Assembly (NCBI GenBank): GCA_903833215.1 | Contig: CAILEM010000012.1 | Span: forward strand, 1 to 64,000 | Origin: an uncultured Armatimonadota bacterium | GTDB lineage: Bacteria; Armatimonadota; Fimbriimonadia; Fimbriimonadales; Fimbriimonadaceae | DNA: 64,000 nt | Direction: 5' to 3' | In this document: one piece after another, positions 21,418 to 29,085 of the stretch | How positions within the stretch are numbered: position 1 is the first letter of the stretch | Layout of the letters: every line of letters begins with the position of its first letter | Program-made: the position numbers and the translations under genes | The notes under the pieces: generated by a model | Seen by the model: the letters and a program-made list of their open reading frames with translations, nothing else | The model's database searches: none | Told to the model about the DNA's origin: nothing

Positions 21418-21690
21418 TCACGACTCCGTGGCCACTAGGATGGAAGCACCGACGACGTTGGCGTATCGAAAAAGTAGCATGTACCCAGGCTTGCGGGTGC
21501 CATTTTCAATTTGGGCAATGTACGGTTGTGAGACGTGTAGCGCTTCCGCAACTTCTTTTTGTGTAAGGTTCGCGTTTTGGCGGGCGCGAACCAACGCCAA
21601 CAGCGCTGATTCCGCTTCGTAAGCTGCCTTGAATTCAGGCGATCTCTCGCATTCGATCGCAATATGTCGGTCTAGATCATCCATTCTCAT
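21418..21690 (-). CDS. Xre-family antitoxin
   Basis: A protein of 90 residues with an Xre helix-turn-helix (NLTQKEVAEALHVSQPYIAQ then ENGTRKPGYMLLFRYANVVG). The N-terminal 35 residues (DLDRHIAIECERSPEFKAAYEAE) match the head of antitoxins that pair with RelE/HigB toxins. The gene is complete. It overlaps by 14 bases the 3' end of what looks like a broken toxin gene, so it may now be an orphan regulator or antitoxin. Confidence 0.82.
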   Translation of the reverse strand: MRMDDLDRHIAIECERSPEFKAAYEAESALLALVRARQNANLTQKEVAEALHVSQPYIAQIENGTRKPGYMLLFRYANVVGASILVATES

Positions 21691-21951
21691 CTTTCCTACG
21701 CTTGTATTCAGTCATTCTCGTTCGCGCCCGTTCCAAAACACTTTGGGGCACGTTCTGGCTTTCCTTCTTGTATACGGTCAGCACTACCAGCCGTTCGAAG
21801 CCTGCCGCCCGCTCGACGGCAAAGAATATCAGTCGCCCCTGATAGGCGGGTTTGATGTGTCGCAGATCGACACAGGCACTCATGGAATGTACAGGCCCTT
21901 CCGTGCCAGGACCATGACGACGTCTCTGCCCCAATATAAGGTGAAGTTCAA
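21677..21951 (-). pseudogene. frameshifted RelE/HigB-like toxin remnant
   Basis: The downstream frame, beginning at an ATG at 21883, encodes the C-terminal part of a PF05973-type toxin: DLRHIKPAYQGRLIFFAVER, then VVLTVYKKESQNVP and RARTRMTEY. The upstream part of the family pattern is in another frame (from about 21951: YWGRDVVMVLARKGLYIP), which ends in TGA at 21882-21880. A single frame change within CCATGAG would join them. As it stands the toxin lacks its N-terminal half. The frame of the C-terminal part is also open back to 21934, but those residues do not fit the family. Confidence 0.55.
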
Positions 21952-22888: not shown

Positions 22889-23167
22889 ATGAAGAGTCAA
22901 TTTGCTCGACTAATCGCCCTTTGCTCAAGCTTAGCGTTTGCTGCCACGGCAGCCGTGGCTGCAGCTCCCTTTCTCACGGCAGCCAATTGGCCGCCCTGTT
23001 CAATTTCCAACCCTAACAATTGTGGTTTGACACCAGGTGCCAGTGGTCCTACGCAGTGCTATAACTGTTGTGCTACCCAATGCGGCGGTAGTGCGGCATG
23101 CCGGTCCTGCTGCACTCAACGTGGCGTAAAGGGCGCGCCGCTGTGCGCAATGCCAACTGTACGCTAG
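22889..23167 (+). CDS. secreted cysteine-rich small protein
   Basis: A precursor of 92 residues with a signal peptide (charged start, hydrophobic core 8-25, Ala-rich cleavage region near 26). The mature part, about 66 residues, holds ten cysteines spaced C-x7-C-x11-C-x2-CC-x3-C-x5-C-x2-CC-x10-C, enough for five disulfides, and a single tyrosine between Cys3 and Cys4. The two CxxCC blocks look like an internal duplication. AGGAAAA precedes the ATG. I do not recognise the family. It heads a closely spaced gene row with a membrane protein and a DsbA-like oxidoreductase. A metal-binding role is the main alternative to a disulfide-rich peptide. Confidence 0.65.
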   Translation: MKSQFARLIALCSSLAFAATAAVAAAPFLTAANWPPCSISNPNNCGLTPGASGPTQCYNCCATQCGGSAACRSCCTQRGVKGAPLCAMPTVR

Positions 23168-23200
23168 GCAAGTCAGAGCCTGCAGACAGTCAGACTCGGG

Positions 23201-23713
23201 ATGATGAAACGAATAGCTACTATCGCAATCGTACTCGCCTCGTCAATACTTAGCGGGTACGTTGCGTGGCGTATTTTTGGTCCCAAGCCTAAAGTGCTTG
23301 ACACTTACGGCGACATGGGGGCAGATATGGGCTTTGACCGTGTGTGGTTTCGGAAGGTAGGAGACATTATTCATCGTGCAAGTACAGATCAATGCCGCGA
23401 GATCTCGTCTAGCGACTATGATGACGTATACAAGCTTCTCAAGTCCGATCATGAACTCGCGCAGTTGCAGGCGCTGTTGATTCTTGGGAGCTGCCCTCCA
23501 TCCGATAAGGCCACTTGGTATCCCAGAATTCATACCCTCAATCGAAAGACGCTTGATCCGGGATTAAAATTGAGCACCTTCGGCACCCTCTGGAACTTGG
23601 ACTTAAGCAAACACGGCGAGATACGTGAGGAGGCAAGGGCTAGCAATCTGCCTGGAGTTGCGGATGCGGTAACCCGCTGGCCTGACAGACGGCTCACGAA
23701 TAACGATCACTAG
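23201..23713 (+). CDS. membrane-anchored protein, unknown function
   Basis: A protein of 170 residues with an N-terminal hydrophobic anchor (about 5-25) and no lipobox, so probably held in the inner membrane facing outward. The rest is soluble, with three cysteines, and mainly helical (YDDVYKLLKSDHELAQLQALLILG, then SCPPSDKATWYPRIHTL), loosely like a HEAT-type helical pair. It begins 33 bases after the cysteine-rich gene and ends 39 bases before the oxidoreductase gene, which suggests one transcript. No function can be assigned. Confidence 0.6.
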   Translation: MMKRIATIAIVLASSILSGYVAWRIFGPKPKVLDTYGDMGADMGFDRVWFRKVGDIIHRASTDQCREISSSDYDDVYKLLKSDHELAQLQALLILGSCPPSDKATWYPRIHTLNRKTLDPGLKLSTFGTLWNLDLSKHGEIREEARASNLPGVADAVTRWPDRRLTNNDH

Positions 23714-23752
23714 GGAGATGAAAAACGCCTGTACCCTAATCAGGAGCCTGCA

Positions 23753-24445
23753 ATGGCGTCCGATCAAGTCATCGGGCGACTGGCTGGTATTCATCCTATG
23801 AGCTCAGACCTCGTTCCTGAACTGAAGTTCAAAAAACTTCAGTGGTGGCTTATTGGAACTACCGTTGCGATAGTGTGTGCTGTGTACATTCGTGAGATTG
23901 GCAGGTTAAGGTCTGAAACTGAGCCCGTTCTTGTCGCAGGTGTAGACTACAGAACTGCACTCTCAGGAGCGCGCCTTGTCTGCGGCGCTAGCACGGCACG
24001 TTACAGTGTTGTTGAATTCTTCGATTACGAATGCCCTCCTTGTAGGTTGGTTTCGCCCCGTCTCTACGATCTCGTCGATCGCTCGAAGGCTAAAGCTTCA
24101 CTTGCTCTTCAGAACTTTCCCCTCGTCATCCATCGCCACGCTCACGAATTGGCATTAATTGCATGTGCATTGGGTCCGGCTCAGTTTGCCGAGTTCCATA
24201 GCAGAGCTCTCGACGTCAAGGGCCCAGATGTAGATGGATTTATGAAGAGCTGGAGGCTAAGCCTCGATAAATCCAAACCAGGGTGGATGACTTCGGCATT
24301 AGGGAAGTTAGATGCCGAAGTTAGGATCGCTCACCAATTATCGATAGATGGTACGCCGTCCATTTTCGTAATTGACAAGGCCAAGAGGGCGATTTACCGT
24401 TGCAGGAATCTCGCGACAGTGTGGCGAGTACTCAACGAGACCTGA
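23753..24445 (+). CDS. membrane-anchored DsbA-like thiol oxidoreductase
   Basis: A protein of 230 residues with an N-terminal membrane helix (about 31-46) and a periplasmic thioredoxin-fold domain of the Thioredoxin_4/DsbA type. The active site is CPPC (94-97) in FFDYECPPCRLV, and the cis-proline loop is GTPSIFVI. A helical insert separates the two, as in DsbA and DsbG relatives. Such enzymes make or rearrange disulfides in exported proteins. AGGAG lies seven bases before the ATG. The ten-cysteine secreted protein encoded two genes upstream is an obvious candidate substrate, an inference from context only. Confidence 0.82.
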   Translation: MASDQVIGRLAGIHPMSSDLVPELKFKKLQWWLIGTTVAIVCAVYIREIGRLRSETEPVLVAGVDYRTALSGARLVCGASTARYSVVEFFDYECPPCRLVSPRLYDLVDRSKAKASLALQNFPLVIHRHAHELALIACALGPAQFAEFHSRALDVKGPDVDGFMKSWRLSLDKSKPGWMTSALGKLDAEVRIAHQLSIDGTPSIFVIDKAKRAIYRCRNLATVWRVLNET

Positions 24446-24478
24446 TTTGACTCAGATGAGTAGTTTGTTAGGACAAGC

Positions 24479-24754
24479 ATGCAACCATCCAGGGTAGTTC
24501 TGTCAGCAACGCGCAACGTCGGTCTTGTACTAGGATCGCTGATATTATGTTTTGACCGAAAGAATACGACTGGCTTGTTAATGCTCGGAACGGCAAAGGT
24601 GGTTAGGGGTGACTACGAGCAAGCCGAGAAGACATTCAATCGTTTACTGGCAGAAGATCCGGGCAGCCTGCACGCCCGCCTCTGGCTTAGCCGGCTTTTC
24701 GTTAAAACCGGGCGCATCGCTGAGGCGAAGAAGCTTGCACTTGAAGCGATCTAG
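24479..24754 (+). CDS. TPR N-terminal part of an interrupted TPR-sulfotransferase
   Basis: 91 codons ending in TAG. The text covers one TPR motif and part of another (GLLMLGTAKVVRGDYEQAEKTF, then HARLWLSRLFVKTGRIAEAKKL). The frame continues directly after the stop into the next coding segment, which starts with GTG at 24755 in the same phase. Without the stop it would be one protein of 611 codons with TPRs leading into a sulfotransferase domain. A TTAGGA ribosome site precedes this ATG. So this is either the 5' part of a gene broken by one nonsense mutation, a readthrough case, or a base-call error. Confidence 0.6.
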   Translation: MQPSRVVLSATRNVGLVLGSLILCFDRKNTTGLLMLGTAKVVRGDYEQAEKTFNRLLAEDPGSLHARLWLSRLFVKTGRIAEAKKLALEAI

Positions 24755-26314
24755 GTGGACGGAGCTAGCTCACTAGCGCAAGCCCAATTGGTGGAGTGCA
24801 ATTGGGCTGCAGACAACCAGTTGCCCCATGCAGTATGCGAACAAGTCGCGGAAGCGTCCCAAATGCCGGCGACTACCTATTACGGATTTGGCATCGCTTT
24901 ATGGGGAATGGGGCGCTCACGTGAAGCAGTGAGTATGTTGGAAAAAGCTCTTGTACACAACCCCAAGCATATGTCGGCGATTCAAGAGCTACTTAACATC
25001 TACAACCGATTGGGTGATGGGCCAAATGAGTTACGTCTCGCGCGTTTAGCCGTCGAAGCTAACTCGGACTTTTCATACCAAGCGACGTTGACCCTCGCGT
25101 TGATCAGAAACGGTCAGGTTGGTGATGCCGAAGACCGGTTTAAAGAATTAGCAGCTAGGCAGCAAAAAGACTCGGGCACTTTATCTCAATTGGGGCTTAT
25201 ATGCGAAATTATGGGCCGCACCGACGAGGCGAATAGCTACTTCTTGTCTTCGATAGAATATCGCCCGGACCAGGGCTTTTCCTACTATTGGATAACTCAA
25301 AACAAGAAAATGACAAGTGAAGACCTTGAGTTCATAGCTAAGATGAAGCAGGTCTTTCTCAGTGATGACCTTGACCTAACCCAAAGGGAGAGTCTTGCGT
25401 TTGCTATAGGAAAGTCTCTTGAGGATCTTGAAGAATATGAAGAGGCCATACGGTATTTTGAAGAGGGAAATGCTTGCGGCTATCGGTCCCATTTTGGAGA
25501 AGAGTACAGCAATAAGAGCGCTATTCCGACAATGGATAGGCAGTTCATGGACGCTCAAGTCCGCCTTTTGGAGAACAGCTATGTCAGCCACTCGCCCATG
25601 CCCATATTCATTGTTGGAATGATTCGATCAGGCACTTCGCTAATGGAGCAAATGCTCTCATCGCATCCGGAAATTGGCGCAGCAGGAGAGCTTGGATTTT
25701 GGGATATAAGTTGGGATGAAATCCAAAAGATTGGCGAGTCTGATTCAGACAGACTCAACGAAATGTGTACTGAATATTGCGAGTTATTGAGAAGCTATGG
25801 CGAGGGTAAGCGGTGTGTCACAGACAAGCGTCCCGACAATTTCCTTCGACTGGGGTTGCTGTGCCGTGCCTTTCCGACCGGCAAAATCATACATATGAAG
25901 AGGCACCCAGCCGATAACTGTGTCTCCATATTAACCACATTGAACGCCACACCTGCGCCGTGGGCTTTCCAGAAAGACACGATAGCACAGTTTTACGAAT
26001 TCTATTCGGATGTCATGGCAGAGTGGCAGTCGCTTCTATCTCCCGGACGCGTGCTAGACGTTCACTACGAAGACCTGATAAATAATCCTGAGATCGTCCT
26101 TCAGCGGGTATGTGAATTCTGCGAACTAGAGTGGGATCCCGCAGTTCTTACGCCCGAGAAGAATCCGCGAGCCGTGGTTACGCCAAGTGTGGCTCAGGTA
26201 AGAAGGCCAGTTTACAGTTCCTCAATCGCGAGGTGGAGAAGGTTCGAGCCATGGTTAGGAGCGATTTCAAACCTTATCGCCGACGAGGAACGAGGCAAAA
26301 CGGTGTCCTCTTGA
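24755..26314 (+). CDS. TPR-sulfotransferase (PF13469 type), C-terminal part
   Basis: 519 codons. TPR repeats occupy about residues 1-240. The sulfotransferase domain has the 5'-phosphosulfate loop in FIVGMIRSGTSLMEQMLSSHP (split here for length: FIVGMIRSGTS, LMEQMLSSHP) and the 3'-phosphate loop in HMKRHPADNCVS. It then runs through VLDVHYEDLINNPE to the C-terminus. This arrangement matches bacterial TPR-linked sulfotransferases related to tyrosylprotein sulfotransferases, which move sulfate from PAPS to a peptide or sugar acceptor in the cytoplasm. The immediate GTG has no clear ribosome site, so independent translation is doubtful unless the TAG at 24752 is bypassed. Confidence 0.75.
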   Translation: MDGASSLAQAQLVECNWAADNQLPHAVCEQVAEASQMPATTYYGFGIALWGMGRSREAVSMLEKALVHNPKHMSAIQELLNIYNRLGDGPNELRLARLAVEANSDFSYQATLTLALIRNGQVGDAEDRFKELAARQQKDSGTLSQLGLICEIMGRTDEANSYFLSSIEYRPDQGFSYYWITQNKKMTSEDLEFIAKMKQVFLSDDLDLTQRESLAFAIGKSLEDLEEYEEAIRYFEEGNACGYRSHFGEEYSNKSAIPTMDRQFMDAQVRLLENSYVSHSPMPIFIVGMIRSGTSLMEQMLSSHPEIGAAGELGFWDISWDEIQKIGESDSDRLNEMCTEYCELLRSYGEGKRCVTDKRPDNFLRLGLLCRAFPTGKIIHMKRHPADNCVSILTTLNATPAPWAFQKDTIAQFYEFYSDVMAEWQSLLSPGRVLDVHYEDLINNPEIVLQRVCEFCELEWDPAVLTPEKNPRAVVTPSVAQVRRPVYSSSIARWRRFEPWLGAISNLIADEERGKTVSS

Positions 26315-26414
26315 CTACGAACCGCTCTAGTAAAGCAGCGATTAAGTCCGCCGACACTATGGTTGCCCGAGGACTGCAGCCAAGTTCCGTGGGCTTGAGG
26401 GTGGCGGATGAAAG

Positions 26415-27053
26415 ATGACATATAGAAGGCTTGCAAGGCACGCGTTTCGCACCAGAGCCTTTACTCTTTTGGAAATGCTGATTGTAATCGGCATAATTGC
26501 TGTCTTGGCAGCGATGCTATTTCCTGTTTTTGATGCAGCGAAAAAATCCTCCAAGGGCTCGGTCTGCCTATCGAATCTACATCAGATTGGTGCCGCAACG
26601 GCGCTGTATATGGGAAACTATGACGGCCGATATCCGGTGATCGTAAACGGCTTCGAAAGAACCGACACATCATTTACTTTGCTGGGGCGAAGTCAGAGCG
26701 ATGACCCATTGATGTTCCCAGACCTTACCGAAGCCTTGCGGCCCTACGCAAAGTCCGACGGCATTTTCGTCTGTCCGCTAGACGTAGGAGCACAGATCGC
26801 CTTGAACATGTTCAAACCCTCCTTCGCCGTCAACAACTTCGGCACCAGCTATATTGTCGCGGAGCTGTTCAACGGTCAAACGGAGAGCACTTGGAGAGAT
26901 CCCTCAAAGGCAACGTGGGTTTGCGATGGCAGTCCGTCGTGGCATGCGCCGAGCTTTGATCCCGATGACATAAAAACCAACAGAGTGACCGCCGTTTTTT
27001 ATGATTGGCATGTGGCGCTAAAATCGGGCAATGCCCCAACCTTCCTCCCATAG
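26415..27053 (+). CDS. prepilin-type pseudopilin (GspG/H-like)
   Basis: A protein of 212 residues with a type III prepilin signal: a basic leader, then the cleavage context AFTLLEMLIVIGIIAVLAAML, with Glu at mature position 5. The globular part has CLSNLHQIGAATALYMGNYDGRYP and a C-terminal VFYDWHVALKSG, the pattern of the large DUF1559-like pseudopilin families. It is processed by a prepilin peptidase and assembled by a type II/IV machine; the secretin at 7.3 kb is a possible partner. It lies 100 bases after the sulfotransferase gene and is probably in the same accessory unit. Confidence 0.85.
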   Translation: MTYRRLARHAFRTRAFTLLEMLIVIGIIAVLAAMLFPVFDAAKKSSKGSVCLSNLHQIGAATALYMGNYDGRYPVIVNGFERTDTSFTLLGRSQSDDPLMFPDLTEALRPYAKSDGIFVCPLDVGAQIALNMFKPSFAVNNFGTSYIVAELFNGQTESTWRDPSKATWVCDGSPSWHAPSFDPDDIKTNRVTAVFYDWHVALKSGNAPTFLP

Positions 27054-27182
27054 GCTAGTAAAGAGACTGGAACTTGTCGCGTTGGGCGCTTGCGCATATG
27101 ACTGCTAATAGACCGGTATTTTGGGATGAGTGCGTACCCAGTTTTGAGGTGAACTTGGGTTTGGGTCCTTGTCAGTGGCGGG

Positions 27183-27491
27183 GTGGCGTTGGCCCTCTTG
27201 GCAGCATTAGGAAGTGATTATTCAAAGTTGTTGCCTGTGCGTAATGCTATGGACACTGTCCTGGTGATGCCGCAGATCCGCTTGGAATGCGAATCAGACA
27301 GGGGCATCGTTCATATGCGCGAGTCGATTGTATATCGTGCCGGCATTTCGCCAAAGGCCCTTGCTCAAACTCTCAAACACTTCATGCTGGCGAGTCAAGA
27401 ACCAATAGGTGACGGAGATTGTCTTGGGAGTTTATGGCCTTTTGTGCAAAGCGCCCGGATAGTGGGGACATTCAAGATGAAACACGACTAG
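27183..27491 (+). CDS. small hypothetical protein with hydrophobic start
   Basis: 102 residues from a GTG start. The frame is open a further ten codons upstream (to 27153), where it encodes more of a hydrophobic stretch (WVWVLVSGGVALALLAALG) but offers no conventional start codon. This suggests either a missed start or a frameshift near 27150. The body has a few recognisable secondary-structure elements but no motif I know. Confidence that it is a real gene is modest. Confidence 0.35.
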   Translation: MALALLAALGSDYSKLLPVRNAMDTVLVMPQIRLECESDRGIVHMRESIVYRAGISPKALAQTLKHFMLASQEPIGDGDCLGSLWPFVQSARIVGTFKMKHD

Positions 27492-27526
27492 AGAAGCTGA
27501 AAGGAGTGGTATATACTTCCATTAGG

Positions 27527-27910
27527 ATGCGAAATAACTTATGTAGATGGGGCATGGCAATGATATTGCCGTGCCTTTTGGTTGTTGCTTCTGGCCAGGA
27601 CAAAGGTGTAAAGCCCACACCAGAACAAATCACACCGAAGATGATAAAGATGCGAAGTGCCGCGGACCTCAATGCCAGAGCTCTGGCCACCGCAGTCCAG
27701 GCTGAAGCGATCAGGTCGGGCAAATACGACAGTGTCTTGTCCGACTACGCCAAAGACCTTGGTGGAATCCTTCCAATGAATCCCTGCACCGGCACCCGGA
27801 CAGGCTTCACTATCGTGGTGTTGCCTGGTGGCAACAAGGCAAACGTCGCAGCAAGTTCCGGCACCAAATGCGGAAAATGGACTCCAAAGGTCTTTAAACT
27901 CGTATTGTGA
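27527..27910 (+). CDS. secreted protein with pseudopilin-like globular domain
   Basis: About 127 residues from the ATG at 27527, though the frame is open back to 27419. A signal peptide (CRWGMAMILPCLLVVASG) replaces the prepilin leader. The body (NARALATAVQAEAIRSGKYD, DLGGILPMNPCTGT, CGKWTPKVFKLVL) resembles the C-terminal globular domain of pseudopilins, including two cysteines placed as for a disulfide. It may be a soluble companion of the prepilin at 26.4 kb. Beyond it, 27911-28396 holds nothing I can support. Confidence 0.5.
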   Translation: MRNNLCRWGMAMILPCLLVVASGQDKGVKPTPEQITPKMIKMRSAADLNARALATAVQAEAIRSGKYDSVLSDYAKDLGGILPMNPCTGTRTGFTIVVLPGGNKANVAASSGTKCGKWTPKVFKLVL

Positions 27911-28396: not shown

Positions 28397-28747
28397 TCAA
28401 AGGCCGTGTGACAGCGAGATTGAAAGATGGCCGGGGCCCTCATCCTTTGCGGATTTTGGTGCAATGAAAATCACGACATCCTGGCCCAACAGAGTCAAGA
28501 ACTGCATGAGCCGATCGCTGGAATAGCCACGGAACTGCCCACTCAACAGCTGAGAGACCTTCGGCTGATCGATGCCCATCAGTTTCGCTGCCGCTGACTG
28601 TGTCAGCTTTTTCTCGCGGATCGTGTGACCTATTGCCCTGACCAGCTTAGCTTTGCCAAGCATTTCCTCTGCGTCTGGGAATCCAAGATCGGCATAGACG
28701 TTGCCGCTACTGGGTGTTACTTGATTCTCTTCTGTTGGGCCTGCCAT
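28397..28747 (-). CDS. HigA-like antitoxin
   Basis: A protein of 116 residues. The segment FPDAEEMLGKAKLVRAIGHT, followed by LTQSAAAKLMGIDQPKVSQL and LSGQFRGYSSDRLMQFLTLLG, is the standard helix-turn-helix of the HigA/XRE antitoxins that accompany Gp49-like toxins. It overlaps the toxin gene by 31 bases on the same strand, toxin first. Both partners look complete, so this is an apparently active module at the right edge of the accessory island. Confidence 0.88.
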   Translation of the reverse strand: MAGPTEENQVTPSSGNVYADLGFPDAEEMLGKAKLVRAIGHTIREKKLTQSAAAKLMGIDQPKVSQLLSGQFRGYSSDRLMQFLTLLGQDVVIFIAPKSAKDEGPGHLSISLSHGL

Positions 28748-29085
28748 TGGGTGTACTCCTGTTCCGCTGCTCTCAAACGTGTTCTAACCAAATCCATGTC
28801 TTGTTTTGACGTTGCGATCCCAGATTTGGATTTCTTCTGAAAGACATGCAGCACATAGACCGCATCTCCAAACCTAACGGTGTAAATCGCGCGATATGTG
28901 TCGCCATCATCATTTGCTACGACCTCCAAAACGCCTGCGCCACCGAAGCCTCTAAGCGGCTTCGCATTATGCGGCTTTTCATCACACTGCGCCAGATACA
29001 ACGAAAAGCCAAAGTTGCTTTGCACCGCCTCTGGCATTGAAATCAAGTCTTTGTGGCTGGATGCGACCCAGAATAGTGGCTTCAT
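28717..29085 (-). CDS. RelE/Gp49-like toxin
   Basis: A protein of 122 residues with the PF05973-type pattern: KPLFWVASSHKDLISMPEAV at the start, KPLRGFGGAGVLEVVAND, then DTYRAIYTVRFGDAVYVLHV and FQKKSKSGIATSKQDMDLV. Family members inhibit translation by mRNA cleavage. The antitoxin gene follows with overlap. Unlike the toxin frames at 21.7 and 22.3 kb, nothing is missing. Confidence 0.88.
   Translation of the reverse strand: MKPLFWVASSHKDLISMPEAVQSNFGFSLYLAQCDEKPHNAKPLRGFGGAGVLEVVANDDGDTYRAIYTVRFGDAVYVLHVFQKKSKSGIATSKQDMDLVRTRLRAAEQEYTQWQAQQKRIK

Follow-up and report, generated by a model that had tools for sequence, protein, structure and literature searches.

A family of putatively exported ten-cysteine mini-proteins recurrently encoded with a DsbA-like oxidoreductase and a pseudopilin in Armatimonadota

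Introduction

Small exported peptides are in some bacteria encoded beside an oxidoreductase of their own, as is the case for sublancin with BdbA/BdbB and pediocin with PedC. In the RaxX-RaxSTAB system of Xanthomonas a short exported peptide gene lies near a sulfotransferase gene, and the sulfotyrosine of RaxX is both essential and conserved. The disulfide of the peptide TMcin is formed by a dedicated DsbA-like protein, TmcD (PMC13252029), and the same source cites, as its reference 33, a requirement for DsbA of the pseudopilin ComGC in Staphylococcus aureus. Within Armatimonadota, an expansion of PulG-like pseudopilins has been reported for Fimbriimonas (79 genes; PMC4072686).

The locus described here resembles each of these systems in part. 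As with TMcin/TmcD, sublancin BdbA/BdbB and pediocin PedC, a small exported peptide is encoded beside its own DsbA- or thioredoxin-like enzyme. It differs from them in that the precursor carries a signal peptide and ten cysteines, and in that a pseudopilin and a predicted solenoid protein are found instead of an ABC transporter and leader peptidase, neither of which was present in the cassettes read. The combination of a pseudopilin with a DsbA-type enzyme in the envelope is shared with ComGC and BdbDC/DsbA, but ComGC-type pilus and competence systems have no separate cysteine-rich peptide. Unlike type IV pilus and competence systems, the cassette also lacks an ATPase, a secretin and a prepilin peptidase; these would have to be supplied by other loci. 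Likeness to RaxX-RaxSTAB is confined to the present locus and one relative; in the cassettes the tyrosine varies among relatives, a RaxA/RaxB transporter is absent and most copies have no sulfotransferase. The genome in question shares with Fimbriimonas, a member of the same phylum, a large stock of N-methyl prepilins, whereas the available text of the Fimbriimonas paper (PMC4072686) mentions neither a sulfotransferase nor a peptide/DsbA link.

Organization of the cassette

The analyzed stretch of 64,000 nucleotides (the window) belongs to contig C12 of the 6.2-Mb genome G000 (Armatimonadota). Features of the cassette are summarized in Table 1. Open reading frames and domain calls bear out the gene order and placement given in the first-pass annotation, and its intergenic gaps of 33, 39, 33 and 100 bases are correct. 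The exception is the sulfotransferase, which had been taken for one open gene; its frame is split by an in-frame TAG codon.

Table 1. Coordinates of the cassette genes and of exemplary sulfotransferase/prepilin neighbourhoods
Feature	Position	Strand	Evidence
Precursor of exported ten-cysteine mini-protein, 92 aa	22889..23167	+	ORF
Gene 2, 170 aa, N-terminal TM helix and predicted HEAT/ARM-like alpha-solenoid	23201..23713	+	profile, AlphaFold2, VIA-align
DsbA-like thiol oxidoreductase, 230 aa, membrane-anchored, CPPC, cis-Pro TPS	23753..24445	+	Pfam DSBA/Thioredoxin_4
Sulfotransferase frame, N-terminal TPR part, 91-aa ORF, ends at TAG 24752-24754	24479..24754	+	ORF; G111 homologue
Sulfotransferase frame, remaining TPR and Sulfotransfer_3 part, 519 aa from GTG 24755	24755..26314	+	PF13469 3.8e-43
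Pseudopilin, prepilin N-methylation signal AFTLLEMLIVIGIIAVLAAMLFPVFDAAK	26415..27053	+	PF07963 N_methyl 4e-6
Secreted relative of type IV pilin globular domain, ATG 27527, without N-methylation motif	27527..27910	+	51% identity/82 aa to pilin
Examples of a sulfotransferase near a prepilin gene in G000	L176 4719-9520; L182 699-3611; window 24479-27053

The oxidoreductase matched Pfam families DSBA (2.7e-6) and Thioredoxin_4 (4.7e-6), both over the cut-off, and contains a transmembrane segment. A profile built on its family matched the structures of ScsC, BdbD and DsbA (best value 3e-14). In the alignment of the DsbA-like proteins the CPPC motif and the TP dipeptide are invariant; the protein of genome G111 (locus L152) has CAPC. 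Judged by the profile match, the CxxC active site and the presence of a cis-Pro loop, the protein is a member of the DsbA family. The N-methylation signal of the pseudopilin (PF07963) was likewise recognized in the gene of a related cassette of genome G012 (2.9e-6).

The pilin-like secreted protein previously noted after the cassette is indeed present and may be associated with the cassette. The product resembles the globular part of a true pilin encoded elsewhere in the genome (G000:C58, L177), with an ordinary signal-like N-terminus in place of the N-methylation motif.

The GC content is about 0.51 in the cassette segment and about 0.55 in its flanks. HigB/HigA-like toxin-antitoxin pairs (Gp49 plus HTH) are located on both sides (21418-21934 and 28397-29085), and together with the low GC content they suggest that the segment was acquired. 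Promoter- and terminator-like sites occurred at or near the level of shuffled sequence, and were uninformative on operon structure.

Distribution and gene content of related cassettes

Relatives of the peptide alone were searched for by sequence in 85 genomes of the family, with a profile in 291 genomes of the phylum, and with a degenerate DNA pattern of the cysteine framework. The sequence search with the 92-residue peptide identified relatives at G000:C25, G012:C42 and G012:C30. The same contigs were among the best matches of the DsbA-like protein used alone, which also retrieved G000:C24 and G079:C6. The profile added genomes G054 and G111, and the DNA pattern added G068 and recovered all of the others. 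Further matches to the pattern lay only in low-complexity DNA, and those in G085, G110 and G247 were discarded. Weak peptide matches in G211, G094 and G027 were judged to be chance. A viral origin was rejected, as the cysteine pattern gave only two in-frame matches in viral contigs, both of them cysteine-dense chance ORFs. Among 80 loci from a DsbA-guided scan of genome contigs, no peptide cassette was found outside Armatimonadota.

Nine strict peptide loci were distinguished in six genomes of two GTDB families, all of them Armatimonadota, with three loci in G000. Genome G111 represents another family of the phylum; its cassette is on a 4.2-kb contig of a 78% complete MAG, so mis-binning is possible. 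The common gene order at the relatives is peptide, gene 2, pseudopilin, DsbA. Gene 2 directly follows the peptide at every locus (9/9; fragmented in G079), and a pseudopilin is encoded in the same gene run at eight (missing at G068). The proposed check of whether the two enzymes recur beside the peptide gave opposite answers: a CPPC/CAPC DsbA-like gene does, at seven of the nine loci (missing at G054 and G068), but a sulfotransferase only at two, lying between DsbA and pilin in the window and after DsbA in G111. The genes flanking the cassettes vary from locus to locus, so shared descent of a single syntenic site does not account for the linkage. The first-pass annotation had allowed that the adjacency might be accidental; the independent homologous cassettes elsewhere indicate that it is not chance. 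On this sequence evidence the module of peptide and oxidoreductase is recurrent and real, which supports the suggested link of a disulfide-rich exported peptide to a dedicated DsbA-like enzyme.

The constant partners of the peptide are gene 2 and the pseudopilin, both of which had been missed as such. The pseudopilin, previously treated as peripheral, is, by its presence at 8/9 loci, a core member of the cassette. G000 carries 107 prepilin genes, and a prepilin is expected by chance in about 18% of 11-kb stretches; pilin abundance therefore does not explain this frequency.

A diverged version of the cassette was found at G022:C58 (L055 5044-9442), where two tandem peptide/gene 2/pilin units are accompanied by one DsbA gene. 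Other cysteine-rich exported proteins with 9-10 cysteines in a different framework are encoded beside DsbA-like genes at L058 3887-7833 and L059 5931-7736; one of these sister loci contains a MauE-DsbA fusion and one a pilin.

The ten-cysteine peptides and gene 2

The window peptide consists of a hydrophobic signal followed by a mature part with ten cysteines and one tyrosine. The framework of the family is a signal peptide followed by WP and C...C...CxxCCxxxC...CxxCC...C, with WP-x-C at its start in the window peptide. Exactly ten cysteines are present at all nine strict loci, and in all nine peptides WP is located near the mature N-terminus. Compared with the window peptide, the other eight show 27-37% identity and retain WP, all ten cysteines and the signal peptide. 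No sequence match to the peptide was obtained in Pfam, NCBIfam, PADLOC or PDB. Its AlphaFold2 model, of low confidence as a whole (mean pLDDT 58), contains two short helices bearing the CxxCC motifs, with pLDDT of about 75 there, and a Foldseek search with this model found no chain. The peptides apparently constitute an undescribed family of disulfide-rich bacterial mini-proteins.

The profile of gene 2 gave strong matches at peptide cassettes only. The AlphaFold2 model of the encoded protein (mean pLDDT 91) shows one N-terminal transmembrane helix and a short helical-repeat solenoid. In VIA-align the best match was to designed Armadillo repeats with a Z score of 10.3, which is generic for helical repeats (13 is advised for such folds), and Foldseek returned no match under 0.001. 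The modelled protein thus appears most similar to HEAT/ARM proteins, the likeness being generic. Solenoid folds of helical repeats often bind peptides, and the predicted fold of gene 2 is compatible with peptide escort or immunity.

Proposed role of the cassette

We propose, with a probability of roughly 55%, that these genes form a self-contained cassette for the oxidative folding and export of a disulfide-locked mini-protein that works with a pseudopilin. The precursor would cross the inner membrane by means of its signal peptide, whereupon the membrane-anchored DsbA-like enzyme would introduce the bonds of the ten cysteines. The product of gene 2 may hold or escort the peptide at the membrane. 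The pseudopilin would be the envelope partner, either carrying the peptide outward or displaying it on a pilus-like fibre. We infer peptide oxidation, escort and the part of the pseudopilin from the gene partnership and the predicted protein features. Neither the DsbA-like gene nor the pseudopilin is strictly needed at each site, since G068 has neither and G054 lacks the former; their part there could be taken by other DsbAs or pilins. Adhesion, signalling and antimicrobial use are possible roles of the peptide outside the cell.

Sulfotransferase genes and pseudopilins

The sulfotransferase frame of the window has TPRs upstream of the Sulfotransfer_3 domain. Its homologue in G111 is continuous across the point of the TAG codon, with 50% (residues 1-90) and 44% identity on either side, and loses its end only at the end of the contig. 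It is the closest of the compared sequences (44-50% identity; no sampled paralogue exceeds 35%). A GTG codon directly follows the TAG, which may represent a nonsense interruption, a sequencing error or the break in a re-initiated two-part gene. The 519 further open codons suggest that the interruption is recent or tolerated. The sulfotransferase is an optional add-on, not a core gene, and is interrupted in the window copy.

PF13469 has 17 matches in G000, most of them in long TPR-type frames, and relatives within the genus encode from 0 to 34 similar TPR-sulfotransferases. Each of the 17 sulfotransferases of G000 has a prepilin gene no more than 5 kb away, which holds for 8 of 70 ABC ATPases (Fisher 2e-12). 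Counted by cluster, the figure is 14/14 against 18% expected for each (binomial p 3e-11), and two other species show the same trend (at least 9/10 clusters in G020 and at least 11/17 in G022). A cysteine-rich exported ORF other than the present peptide was found in one of 20 sulfotransferase neighbourhoods, and a general link between the two was rejected on this ground. As a separate observation, L191 of genome G018 contains such an ORF with nine cysteines (2492-2866) near a TPR-sulfotransferase at the contig start.

With all 17 genes near prepilins, a pilin-linked role fits better than sulfation of the peptide, and this gene neighbourhood suggests that the family goes with pseudopilins rather than cysteine-rich peptides. 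It is possible, at less than even odds, that the enzyme acts without involvement of the peptide and has as its substrate either the pseudopilin next to it or a surface glycan borne by the pilus; this would be compatible with the folding and export role proposed above. The association is one of proximity only, often over 1-4 kb and not always on a shared strand. In other clusters the neighbours include flavin halogenase-like proteins or a PhyH oxygenase, which would fit a small molecule as the substrate. No literature on a link between sulfotransferases and prepilins in Armatimonadetes was found.

Two loci conserved in two species (L179 676-8876 and L186 695-8937) comprise a TPR-sulfotransferase, three tryptophan-halogenase-like flavoproteins, a small lipoprotein-like ORF and a prepilin, and possibly constitute a halogenation/sulfation cluster.

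Alternative functions of the peptide

The peptide might be a bacteriocin-like antimicrobial, with gene 2 as its immunity protein and the DsbA-like enzyme maturing it as BdbA/B do sublancin. It is small, exported, disulfide-rich and rapidly diverging, it has a dedicated oxidoreductase, and several cassettes occur per genome; gene 2 is a constant membrane partner that also diverges fast (13-37% identity). However, seven of the nine peptides are acidic (net charge -1 to -4), the cassette lacks an exporter, a peptidase and a regulator, and an immunity role would leave the pseudopilin unexplained. We regard this function as unlikely.

The first-pass annotation had suggested that the sulfotransferase perhaps sulfates the single tyrosine of the peptide, giving a sulfated disulfide-rich signal peptide like that of RaxX/RaxST. 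A homologous TPR-sulfotransferase directly after DsbA in G111 argues against a single accident, and the only basic peptides are those of the window and G111, which have a sulfotransferase beside them. Nevertheless, the enzyme is absent from 7/9 cassettes and carries an in-frame stop in the window, and the TPR-sulfotransferases of G000 are hardly ever found near cysteine-rich peptides. The tyrosine is not conserved either: at this position the nine peptides have Y,Y,E,Y,V,T,V,S,Q, with serine in G111, the other sulfotransferase cassette, and tyrosine in two cassettes that have no sulfotransferase, and one relative contains no tyrosine at all. Tyrosine sulfation of the peptide is therefore unsupported and very unlikely.

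A cytoplasmic, metallothionein-like metal-binding peptide with accidental neighbours, which ten cysteines and CxxCC motifs might suggest, was rejected as highly improbable given the signal peptide conserved in all relatives, the linked DsbA and the oxidising envelope.

Significance

The oxidative-folding and export role remains our preferred explanation of the cassette. A bolder version, which we advance tentatively and consider rather less probable, is that the cassettes encode an envelope system of a new type. A family of diversifying ten-cysteine mini-proteins would here be folded by its own DsbA, held by a solenoid protein in the membrane, and exported or displayed by a pseudopilin dedicated to it. 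If this is true, disulfide-rich peptides would be delivered by way of pilus-type machinery. The analysis also brought out a second, independent association, that of pseudopilins with sulfotransferases. It provides a mini-protein family of a little-studied phylum with a consistent set of genomic partners. Pseudopilin genes without an explanation number about a hundred in genomes of this phylum, and the cassette gives some of them a testable job, namely peptide display or export.
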